A stretch of 64,000 nucleotides of DNA from an uncultured Gammaproteobacteria bacterium (lineage in GTDB: Bacteria > Pseudomonadota > Gammaproteobacteria > Pseudomonadales > Pseudohongiellaceae), in assembly GCA_913048385.1 (NCBI GenBank), contig CAJWVZ010000001.1:1-64000 (forward strand), given 5' to 3'. The position numbers were made by a program, and so were the translations under genes. Shown in pieces: positions 49,860-53,792 of this stretch. The notes under the pieces were generated by a model, which was not told the origin of the DNA, did not search any database, and worked only from the letters and a program-made list of their open reading frames with translations. The number at the start of each line of letters is the position of its first letter. Position 1 is the stretch's first letter.

Positions 49860-51032
49860 TTACTGCCCATTGGACATGATCATAGCGTGCTTCATATCCA
49901 TCATTTCTCTTGAACGATTTCTCTCAGATTGCATGAGCTCTCCTACAGCCGGTCCACCTTGATTATAGATGCCTCCTCGTAAGGCAAAAAGTAAGTATTC
50001 TTCTGGCGCAATCTCAACAGCGTTTTTGTTTGTAAAGGTATTCACCGCGTCTGTGATGAGATCCGATCGATTTTCTAGATTAGGGTAGGAAAGTATGTCA
50101 GCGATCATCGTTTCTAAAACGTTGAGATTGTCGATTATTATGGCCGCCTGAGGGGATTGGCTGTACAGATCAGGTGCGATTGCCGGGGTCATGGGTAATT
50201 CTGTAGGTGCAGGGAACATGCTCATTCCCCCTGCAGAACCAATTTTGTTCCAAAATCGTTCAAGAGCGATCGGAATTCCGTTGTCAAATTGCGAATCTAC
50301 GTGCTCACGAATGATTGCTTCGAGACTAGCAAGCTGAAGCCACTGCTGTGTCCATTGAAAAGCACTCAAACGAGGGAAGGCAGTTTTGAATGCTGTTGCT
50401 TGCGGATGCGTTAAAATGAAGCCGTTATCTTTTGGGGATGACGCTACAGAATGACTGTCATTGCTTAAATAATTATCGATTGCAGTGTTAAGCGCAATAA
50501 GCTTGTCATTGATACTGTCGTCGAGATAGATGGCTAGTACTGTGTTTTCAAACTGACGGCCACGCGAAAGTACCTCAGCAGCTTGAGAGTCCAGTATTGA
50601 ACTGTTCGAAAACGCCTGTGAGGCTGCTTCGTCGGTGTGTTTTCCCCGCATCGTTTCACGTAAACCAATGCGAGCTTCAATTTCCAGATCACCGTATGGC
50701 CCACTCATATTCATGCCCATATGCATACCACCATCATGTCCCATATCAGATGACATCATTTCTTGCATGGTCATATTGGCCATCATCGTGAGATGGTCTT
50801 CAAGTTGATCGCGCGCGGGCTGTGCGTATTGATTTTCATTAATCTTCATAATCTCTTCAAAAGCTTGAGCATGAGTTAGATCAAAAGCGTTAAAAAGATC
50901 TGCAAGTTCGGGATGGGAGATTCTAAGAGAGTTGTTTGATTGGGCTGCGCTGGTACCGGCCAGTAGCCAAAGAATTGCAACAAGCGGTGCGACTATTGAT
51001 CTTTCTTTGGAAAACTGATGCCTCTCAGACAT
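49860..51032 (-). CDS. Exported Met/His-rich protein of unknown function
   Basis: Not recognised. The 390 residues begin with a signal peptide (VAPLVAILWLLAGTSAAQ). The rest looks largely alpha-helical. A striking segment near residues 83-112 is rich in Met and His (MMANMTMQEMM, then DMGHDGGMHMGMNMSG), and the C-terminus again has REMMDMKHAMIM. Such clusters resemble copper- or silver-binding sequences of periplasmic proteins, but no known copper-protein fold is evident. It lies upstream of ydbH on the same strand, 60 bases from the open ydbH frame. Confidence 0.7.
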   Translation of the reverse strand: MSERHQFSKERSIVAPLVAILWLLAGTSAAQSNNSLRISHPELADLFNAFDLTHAQAFEEIMKINENQYAQPARDQLEDHLTMMANMTMQEMMSSDMGHDGGMHMGMNMSGPYGDLEIEARIGLRETMRGKHTDEAASQAFSNSSILDSQAAEVLSRGRQFENTVLAIYLDDSINDKLIALNTAIDNYLSNDSHSVASSPKDNGFILTHPQATAFKTAFPRLSAFQWTQQWLQLASLEAIIREHVDSQFDNGIPIALERFWNKIGSAGGMSMFPAPTELPMTPAIAPDLYSQSPQAAIIIDNLNVLETMIADILSYPNLENRSDLITDAVNTFTNKNAVEIAPEEYLLFALRGGIYNQGGPAVGELMQSERNRSREMMDMKHAMIMSNGQ

Positions 51033-51143
51033 GGGTAAAGCTCCGTATAGGGTTTTAGTGCTAATTGCCTGCTTTGGGTGCGATAGTCTACCTTAGACAA
51101 TTCTAAAGATTAGTATAAACTGATGGGATGTTTTATCCAATGG

Positions 51144-51198
51144 GCGCAGCAACATTTAGTAATTAAGGTGTTATTAATTGTTACATTTCCTGCTGCGC
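51144..51198 (+). repeat. Long inverted repeat upstream of the selenoprotein gene
   Basis: GCGCAGCA and TGCTGCGC form perfect 8-base arms around a 39-base centre that contains a second pairing, AATTAA/TTAATT. It lies in the spacer between the divergent Met/His-rich gene and the SelW-like gene, about 60 bases before the latter. It could be a transcript hairpin or a regulator site; no U tract follows. Confidence 0.55.
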
Positions 51199-51259: not shown

Positions 51260-51499
51260 ATGAGTGAGAGTATTGAAATTACTTATTGTGCGGAATGAAA
51301 CTATCTACCCGAGGCGGACCGTGTGCTCGCTGAGATAAAAGATAGATTTCCAGGTATTGAAATAATCAAGGTGGCAAGTGGTGGGGGAGTCTTCGATGTC
51401 TGCCACGGCGGTGTCATTGTGTTTAGTAAAGGTGGGGTAAATCGGTTTCCTCACCCCGGAGAGTGTGCGCGACTTATCGCCGCGCGCATTGAGCACTAG
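51260..51499 (+). CDS. SelW-like (Rdx family) selenoprotein with in-frame UGA
   Basis: Absent from the ORF track because TGA is read as stop. From ATG 51260 the frame encodes 79 residues if TGA 51296-51298 is selenocysteine: MSESIEITYCAE-U-NYLPEADRVL. This gives the C-x-x-U redox motif (C10, U13) at the end of the first strand, as in SelW/Rdx thioredoxin-fold proteins, followed by the family features GGGVFDV and VIVFSKGG with NRFPHPGE. The frame then stays open to TAG 51497. A hairpin of bacterial SECIS type lies just after the UGA. It ends seven bases before the convergent DUF5916 stop. The Shine-Dalgarno is weak. The role is probably thiol redox chemistry; selA/selB/selC are not in the window, and a decayed Cys form is the main alternative. 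Confidence 0.85.
51310..51329 (+). promoter_or_regulatory. Candidate bacterial SECIS hairpin
   Basis: Starting 11 bases after the UGA, CGA-G-GCG pairs with UGCUCG (C-G, G-C, A-U, bulged G, G-C, C-G, G-U) leaving a 7-base loop GACCGUG. The apical loop begins 18 bases after the UGA and opens with G, both within the known bacterial SECIS pattern (loop 16-37 bases downstream, G among the first two loop bases). Folded by hand only. Confidence 0.55.
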
Positions 51500-51506
51500 T
51501 TAGATT

Positions 51507-53792
51507 TTATCGTTGGAAAAGGTACGAGAATTTCACAAAGAATTGGTCGCCGTCGTTTCGAAGTTCATTCGCCACTACGAGTTCCCGCTCTCCCTCCATG
51601 TCTACAATATCGAAATTACTTCGATTCGTGTTGTAACCGACATATAAAGCTGACCAAGGGTTAATAACGTATCTAAGAAGCAAGTCGAAGTTTAGGTTCT
51701 CATCATCTACGAGACGCGTTGCAGGTCCCGCATCGGTCTCGTCATATTGAGCAATGAAACGTAAGGACCACTCGCGAGTAAACTGATAGTTCCAATTCGA
51801 ACGAACAATCCTGTTCGTAAAAATTGAGGTCCCGCTGAGCGTCTCCAATTGAGTGTCAAGGTATGTATTCGAGACACGTAACCGGTCAATGGGTCTCCAA
51901 AGGGCGTCAATGCTTACCCTGCGAGTATTAGCTACTCCTGGCATCGTGCCACTGGGGGGCACCACGTTAAGCGCCTTGCCGTCACGAATTGATGCCTGCA
52001 CGTTGAGGCTTTCTAAGACAGTGTTTGAATAGCGAAGCGTGATGTCATCGTAACTATATGATTGATTACTGGCTAAACCATTAAAATCTTGGGGTCGTAA
52101 AATCTCTTCGTAATCGGCGATCGATGCGCTGAACTGACTTGTCGCAAACTTAATTTCGGCACTCGCGCTTACTTGGCTAAAAAGTTTTTGACCCTCCATG
52201 TCTTGGAGGTACACCGGAAAGAATGTTGCTCCCCAACTGTTAATTGCCGATTCATCGGGATAGAAGTTAAAGTTCAGCCTTTGGTGCAACCCTTCTGTGT
52301 CGGCTTTAAAATATCGATTAGCAAAGCCAAGTTCAGTGCGGAAGTCTTTTGTCGTTGCGATGTAGTGGGTATGGTTATTAAACGTGCGACCAGAGCGGTT
52401 CACGGCGATATTTCGCTGATAACCAGTGGTTTTTTCTCCGCTAGCATGATGTTCGCTTTCAGTCGCAACAGTCTGCATCTGTGTGACCCAATTGGCATTT
52501 AGCTTAAATCGGCCGTCAAGACTGCCAACCCTGTTGTATCCGTTCCCAAGTTCTCTATCGGTAACGAGAAACCCTACTCTGTTCTGTGCTGAAAAGTCTC
52601 TGAAGCCCCTGAGTATAGCAATGTTTGCTTTTTCTCCGTCTAACGGGTCATCAGCGTCGCGGTTTAAGCCCGGTGCCTCGTCGTTTATCATAATTGCACC
52701 GAACCCATAGTCACCAGCTTTTCCTGTAAGTCGGATGCCTCCTTCCGGGTCAACGATGCGTCTTGTGAATACAAGATTAGAGTCCGTTGCGAAGAAGTCG
52801 GCGTTCTCGACAAAGAAGGGCCGCCGCTCTGGGAACTGAACTTCGAATCGTTCGTTCAGTGTGACCTGTGGTTGATCTGATTCAACTTGGCTAAAATCAG
52901 GATTTAGGGTTAGATCGAGGACGATCGCATCGTTAAAAATAAATTTCGCGTCAAGCCCAACATCTTGCTCAGACTTTTGATTAAACATTGGGCCGCCTGT
53001 TGCGTCGGGATCTAAGGCGTCAATTTCTCTTGCGAAAATAAATGGAATAATCTGTGTGTTATTTCCAGGCGCGACGCTAGTGATACCTGACATCAGGGCA
53101 GTTTGATTTAGTCTTCCTTCTTTACTGATTGAGTAATGTGGCCAGTTATTCTGCTCATCAAGTCTTGCGATATATCGACCAACTTGCACCCGCCAAAGCT
53201 GGTCCTCTGCTTCTGGAAATCGGAGGCTCCTCAGTGGTATTGACATCTTAACGGCATACCCGTGGTCGGTTACTCGACCTTCACTGTCCCAAACTGCTTC
53301 GAGTGTGGTATCAAACCCGCCCCGGAAGGATGATCCCTCTGTCCAGCGCGCGTCCCACTGAATTCCCACGGGATTGGTCCTAAAGGCGAAAGCCGCTCTT
53401 TGTGCATTAAAGGTGTCAATAATCAGTTCGACCGAGTCGTCTCCTTCAAAGTTCTCTCTTGAGGATATGTTGGCCCGTATAAGCTCAGGTTCATCATCGA
53501 AAGCGAGAAATATTGCGTGAAGCTTGGTGGAGTCGTAACCGAGATATACTTCGGTGCGTTGTGAGGCGGGGTCACCATCGTCTGGAAGCCGCTGTATAAA
53601 AGATTCAATCTTAGTCATAGATTGAGCGAGGCTCGAGATTGGCTTCATGTCTTGAGGCGAAATAAAGTCTGTCAATTCTGGAGTGTCAGATAGCTTTGGT
53701 ATCGAGATTTCTTGACCATGGCTTAACTGGCTTAAAAGAGCACATATAAGCGAGGTGGTCAAAAAAAGGTTTTGAGAGACGGAATAGGACAT
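51507..53792 (-). CDS. DUF5916 protein: exported CBM9-like domain plus C-terminal barrel
   Basis: The 761 residues begin with a signal peptide (LTTSLICALLSQLSHGQ). Residues about 30-230 form a carbohydrate-binding family 9-like domain with TEVYLGYDSTKLHAIFLAFD, REN(F)EGDDSVELIIDTF and AAFAFRTNPVGIQWDA. The signature PDFSQVESDQPQVTLNERFE and FPERRPFFVENADFF leads to a DUF5916 beta-barrel that ends in VKFSYLFQR, as expected for an outer-membrane protein. It is thought to bind or import large organic molecules, but no ligand is established. The barrel has no TonB plug. Confidence 0.85.
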   Translation of the reverse strand: MSYSVSQNLFLTTSLICALLSQLSHGQEISIPKLSDTPELTDFISPQDMKPISSLAQSMTKIESFIQRLPDDGDPASQRTEVYLGYDSTKLHAIFLAFDDEPELIRANISSRENFEGDDSVELIIDTFNAQRAAFAFRTNPVGIQWDARWTEGSSFRGGFDTTLEAVWDSEGRVTDHGYAVKMSIPLRSLRFPEAEDQLWRVQVGRYIARLDEQNNWPHYSISKEGRLNQTALMSGITSVAPGNNTQIIPFIFAREIDALDPDATGGPMFNQKSEQDVGLDAKFIFNDAIVLDLTLNPDFSQVESDQPQVTLNERFEVQFPERRPFFVENADFFATDSNLVFTRRIVDPEGGIRLTGKAGDYGFGAIMINDEAPGLNRDADDPLDGEKANIAILRGFRDFSAQNRVGFLVTDRELGNGYNRVGSLDGRFKLNANWVTQMQTVATESEHHASGEKTTGYQRNIAVNRSGRTFNNHTHYIATTKDFRTELGFANRYFKADTEGLHQRLNFNFYPDESAINSWGATFFPVYLQDMEGQKLFSQVSASAEIKFATSQFSASIADYEEILRPQDFNGLASNQSYSYDDITLRYSNTVLESLNVQASIRDGKALNVVPPSGTMPGVANTRRVSIDALWRPIDRLRVSNTYLDTQLETLSGTSIFTNRIVRSNWNYQFTREWSLRFIAQYDETDAGPATRLVDDENLNFDLLLRYVINPWSALYVGYNTNRSNFDIVDMEGERELVVANELRNDGDQFFVKFSYLFQR

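Follow-up and report, generated by a model that had tools for sequence, protein, structure and literature searches.

SelW-like proteins with a CxxU redox motif are the most abundant marine selenoprotein family, as reported in 2005 and 2008 (PMC1088965, PMC2398784), and the GOS survey counted 427 of them (PMC2398784). A redox function has been proposed for these proteins in a published survey that left the exact function open (PMC1088965), and it has been noted before that SelW genes can be missed entirely by annotation (PMC4607533). The window analysed here, a stretch of 64,000 nucleotides from an uncultured gammaproteobacterium, carries a gene of this kind. It shares with the bacterial SelW-like selenoproteins of the Sargasso Sea and GOS data (PMC1088965, PMC2398784) the CxxU motif, the length, the match to the Rdx family, a bacterial SECIS after the UGA and marine relatives, and nothing essential differs; the window and MED855 form a distinct two-species branch, with residues such as Leu or Phe after ADRV where most have Ser. 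Since the family had already been reported as the commonest marine selenoprotein, the gene adds a member and not a new family, as the original prediction had rightly held for marine bacteria, and the understanding of the SelW-like family itself is unchanged by it.

Two further groups of proteins are among the closest known. The Cys-form SelW-related proteins (those of other gammaproteobacteria, and the structures 2fa8, 2oka, 2obk and 2p0g) have the fold and the position of the redox motif in common with the window protein, but carry CxxC instead of CxxU and a longer C-terminal tail (often ending in LGHSDR), and belong to a separate clade. Mouse selenoprotein W (2npb) and human MIEN1/C17orf37 (2ljk) share the Rdx fold and a CxxU or CxxC motif; their identity to the window protein is 22-28%, and the eukaryotic SECIS lies in the 3'UTR, whereas that of the window lies inside the coding sequence.

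An unannotated gene with an in-frame UGA codon

The gene occupies positions 51260-51499 of the plus strand, from an ATG at 51260 to a TAG stop at 51497-51499, with an in-frame TGA at 51296-51298, exactly the coordinates that had been proposed. With the TGA read as selenocysteine (U, residue 13), the frame runs uninterrupted through 79 residues (MSESIEITYCAEU...RFPHPGECARLIAARIEH), the full conceptual protein ending in ARIEH. Under translation table 11 the plus strand yields at this locus only a 58-residue fragment started by GTG (ORF 51323-51499), so that the gene, which is real, would be missed by standard gene callers, as had been anticipated. The gene is flanked by two minus-strand ORFs, 49860-51032 on one side and, on the other, 51507-53792, which matches DUF5916. 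Two noncoding segments upstream of the gene, 51110-51124 (AGTATAAACTG) and 51165-51188 (AAGGTGTTATTAATTGTTACATTT), are conserved in the sister locus L022 and are probably promoter or regulatory sites, either for the SelW-like gene or for the divergent gene at 49860-51032. Other UGA read-through frames in the intergenic gaps of the window contain no recognised Cys/Sec-type motif.

Family profiles match the conceptual protein on both sides of the UGA. Pfam Rdx (PF10262) covers residues 5-73 with E=6.9e-14 and 52.3 bits (cut-off 22.6), and NCBIfam TIGR02174 (CXXU_selWTH) covers the same residues with 5e-12 and 45.9 bits (cut-off 34.2); judged from these alignments, homology across the UGA is well beyond chance, and the claim of an unannotated SelW/Rdx selenoprotein is borne out. 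The best-scoring NCBIfam model is NF041051 (SelTWH_Campy), a Campylobacter-type model of the SelT/SelW/SelH family, which matches at full length with E=7.8e-23. Its 80.5 bits do not reach the 88 required of an equivalog; this assignment was therefore not made, and automatic naming could fail.

The motif C10-A-E-U13 (51287-51298) follows the first strand (residues 4-10) and aligns with the CxxC of the Cys forms, at the family position where it had been predicted to lie. In an AlphaFold model of the protein (pLDDT 89.7, pTM 0.74) the CxxU comes after strand 1 and before helix 1, where thioredoxin-like proteins have their redox site. The nearest PDB structures to the model are the SelW-related 2fa8, 2oka and 2obk (TM 0.86-0.91; for 2fa8 E=7e-7 and TM 0.86-0.90), with mouse SelW (2npb) at TM 0.78, and the predicted fold is the thioredoxin-like beta-alpha-beta-beta-beta-alpha arrangement of SelW.

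Selection and a bacterial SECIS behind the UGA

The nearest sister, L022, encodes a protein 76% identical to that of the window and has neighbouring genes in common with it. Over the 66 codons after the UGA, 33 differ between the two loci, 16 of them synonymously; the changes at codon positions 1, 2 and 3 number 10, 6 and 26, and the NG86 estimates are dN 0.147 and dS 0.720 (dN/dS about 0.2). The remaining two frames 3' of the UGA contain stops, several of them in just one of the two species. This comparison indicates that the region after the UGA is under purifying selection, and relatives keep a single TGA and an open frame; the scattered stops and relaxed selection that would have spoken against a selenoprotein were looked for and are not the pattern observed.

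A SECIS-like hairpin follows the UGA. Its upper part (51313-51331) has a stem of 7 bp, in which a single A.C mismatch occurs (51318/51326), and an apical loop CGUGU (51320-51324), whose GU at loop positions 2-3 is a putative SelB contact; an outer stem, predicted in identical form in the window and its sister, pairs CUAUCU (51301-51306) with AGAUAG (51340-51345). The U forms align without gaps from the UGA through the hairpin, which starts 14 nt after the UGA and reaches its 5-nt loop after 21 nt. Across the 47 sequences that are distinct, pairing is seen in 88.4% of stem cells, against 76.4% in shuffled alignments and no more than 45.6% when the register is slid. Changes on both sides are found at five of the seven stem pairs, and the covariation is 0.347 versus 0.114, with 0 of 500 shuffles reaching 0.347. 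One pair joins the third positions of an Ala and a Ser codon and is free of protein constraint: in sequences in which both codons are fourfold degenerate it forms in 42 of 44, with 23 expected (0 of 100,000 shuffles). These shuffles take no account of the relatedness of the sequences; the six standard pair types found at this wobble-wobble pair speak for repeated compensation.

In the loop codons GAC-CGT-GTG the third position hardly varies (60/62, 60/62 and 61/62), while adjacent third positions vary freely, and in L066 the inner stem is rewritten beneath an identical CGUG loop. A paralogous group (L104-L110) has a different stem, and at this position its loop reads AGUCU or AGUUU; the GU at loop positions 2-3 is thus common to both groups. 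In the single-contig genome G057 (L104), two U-form paralogues of the KAVSLAAKL type are separated by about 5.5 kb, and their SECIS loop is AGUCU, not CGUGU.

The bSECIS model describes a loop of 3-9 nt, an upper stem of 4-16 bp, a spacing of 16-37 nt from the UGA, a G at loop position 1 or 2 (mostly as G[G|U]) and a minimum free energy of at most -7.5 kcal/mol (PMC13188914). The relatives fit this model (loop CGUGU with G at position 2, spacing of 21 nt, covarying 7-bp stem). The window's own copy fits it in loop and spacing, and satisfies it as a whole only if the upper-stem mismatch is allowed: its 54-nt fold reaches -9.7, with the closing pair open in the minimum-energy fold, and the hairpin alone reaches -2.8 kcal/mol versus -7.5 in the sister. 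Taken alone, the 61 nt that follow the window's UGA fold no better than shuffles (z 0.03) and carry no signal; the SECIS is visible only by comparison of relatives. A covariance-model search of the host genome returned the window's SECIS with 53.7 bits and E=1e-9, the sequence itself being part of the model, and found no further SECIS with confidence. The bacterial SECIS that had been proposed as a check is therefore present as a covarying hairpin, and we read the window's copy as functional but possibly less efficient.

The mismatch and the weak hairpin could instead mean that an ancestral selenoprotein gene is decaying here, its SECIS upper stem one pair short, its read-through poor and the gene itself a recent pseudogene. 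Decay does occur in relatives: the U-form copies L112 (frame break) and L113 (early stop), in G017 and G073, seem broken, which suggests gene loss in some relatives, or assembly errors. For the window's gene this explanation is nevertheless very unlikely, as there is no other lesion, selection on the codons after the UGA is evident against the sister, and the outer stem and loop are retained along with the covariance-model score. It is more improbable still that the true product is the 58-residue ORF, which is what a table-11 caller detects, or a 12-residue leader, the upstream homology being a relic: the 58-residue form would be without the first strand and the CxxU, both of which are conserved along with the remainder, and four of the six codon changes before the UGA (window versus L022) are synonymous. 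We conclude that 51260-51499 is, almost certainly, a functional gene of a SelW-like (Rdx family) selenoprotein with selenocysteine at UGA 51296.

Distribution and phylogeny of the U form

In 52 of the 84 genomes assigned to the genus (the host's own included), and also in Verrucomicrobiota, homologues have TGA at the codon of the window's UGA. The U form is thus not universal in the genus, although the 32 genomes without a match include many incomplete ones. At codon 13, TGA is found in 64 homologous loci and Cys (TGC or TGT) in 29 others, and the homologues of other gammaproteobacterial families nearly all have TGC or TGT. A tree of 89 sequences separates the 60 U forms completely from the 29 Cys forms by a branch with support 100/99; built on few columns, it does not resolve the inner order. 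Searches for homologues on plasmids and viral contigs found none. Although the host genome is a draft assembly of 37 contigs and TGA is one base away from TGC and TGT, there is next to no probability that the TGA is a Cys codon misread in sequencing or assembly: it is shared by independent genomes, among them the single-contig genomes G025, G057 and G064 and the cultured Roseibacillus persicicus.

Among 195 relatives, the U form is accompanied by selA in 49 and occurs without it in 5, with selA alone in 47 and neither in 94 (Fisher p=1e-13), an association that comes mostly from differences between genera and is thus confounded by phylogeny. The five genomes with the U form in which no selA was found are all incomplete (79-92%).

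Selenocysteine decoding and other UGA-containing genes of the host

The host genome (2.52 Mb, 98.9% complete) encodes the selenocysteine machinery that the gene implied, every component scoring over its curated cut-off. selB lies at C9:30934-32820 (365 bits, cut-off 242) and selA at C9:39259-40629 (544 bits), while tRNA-Sec (selC) is found at C12:84467-84558 (64.5 bits, gathering threshold 47; anticodon TCA by ARAGORN); the lack of tRNA-Sec or selB, which would have counted against the original prediction, is not observed. selD (276 bits) forms the C-terminal end of a 758-residue fusion protein on the minus strand of contig C12 (L032:2621-4897), whose N-terminal half is, as judged by eye, NADH-dehydrogenase-like. 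The SelD of this fusion has Cys, not Sec, in its active site. A genome-wide reassignment of UGA (for example to Trp), for which one might cite that UGA is the stop of just 2 of the window's 28 long open frames, is the least credible explanation of all, given that UGA terminates some genes in the window and many of the homologues themselves, that position 13 aligns with Cys and not Trp, and that the full machinery and a SECIS are present.

From the computed gene, homology, machinery, SECIS covariation, purifying selection and predicted fold we infer the insertion of selenocysteine, the SelB contact and the redox chemistry as follows. Ribosomes would initiate at ATG 51260; SelA would convert seryl-tRNA(Sec) to its Sec form with selenophosphate supplied by the SelD fusion; and SelB.GTP.Sec-tRNA(Sec), bound to the GU-containing loop of the downstream hairpin, would insert Sec at UGA 51296 in place of termination. 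The 79-residue product would adopt its thioredoxin-like fold and carry Cys10 and Sec13 where the first strand ends. The two probably alternate between a selenenylsulfide and the reduced thiol/selenol form, which would make the protein a thiol-disulfide or peroxide-linked oxidoreductase; its likely reaction is a cycle through the selenenylsulfide with a thiol as reductant. The finding brings to light an overlooked gene in a gammaproteobacterial genome and indicates that the lineage decodes selenocysteine. The alignment of about 60 U forms yields a bacterial SECIS with clean covariation and a nearly invariant CGUGU loop, which could improve SECIS models and family annotation.

Four peroxiredoxin/thioredoxin-like genes of the AhpC/TSA type in the same genome (L125, L126, L129 and L130), all on minus strands, have one in-frame UGA each in the active site, with Pfam matches that cross it: TGGU-TMQC (C5:77937-78299), DWUPYC (C7:7687-8151), SWUGCR (C24:24852-25193) and GYWUPFC (C5:22231-22593). 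In the TGGU, DWUPYC and SWUGCR genes a hairpin follows the UGA at about the spacing seen in the SelW-like gene, and that of SWUGCR (L129) carries an identical CGUGU loop; no clear hairpin was found after the UGA of GYWUPFC, and the AhpD/CMD genes of the host are without UGA. As a minimum count, the host thus has at least five UGA-containing redox genes in 2.5 Mb.

The one unexpected item in the analysis is a SelW-like locus in a relative (L111, G096:C5:64921-65139, minus strand) with the motif U-T-Q-U, in which both active-site codons are TGA. One prokaryotic selenoprotein catalogue gives the SelW-like motif only as CxxU, and UxxU for other families (PMC9312934). A second TGA also occurs in the loci of G016, G047, G032 and G083, where it is the terminator; only G096 has UxxU. 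As this is the sole case among 136 genomes of the family, a TGC-to-TGA error may account for it. L111 has an intact SECIS-like hairpin at the usual distance behind its second TGA, with the loop about 21 nt downstream of the second UGA and about 30 nt downstream of the first; tentatively, its sequence raises the possibility that in this gammaproteobacterial lineage the SelW fold is also built with two selenocysteines, one SECIS hairpin serving both UGAs of a predicted diselenide Rdx protein.
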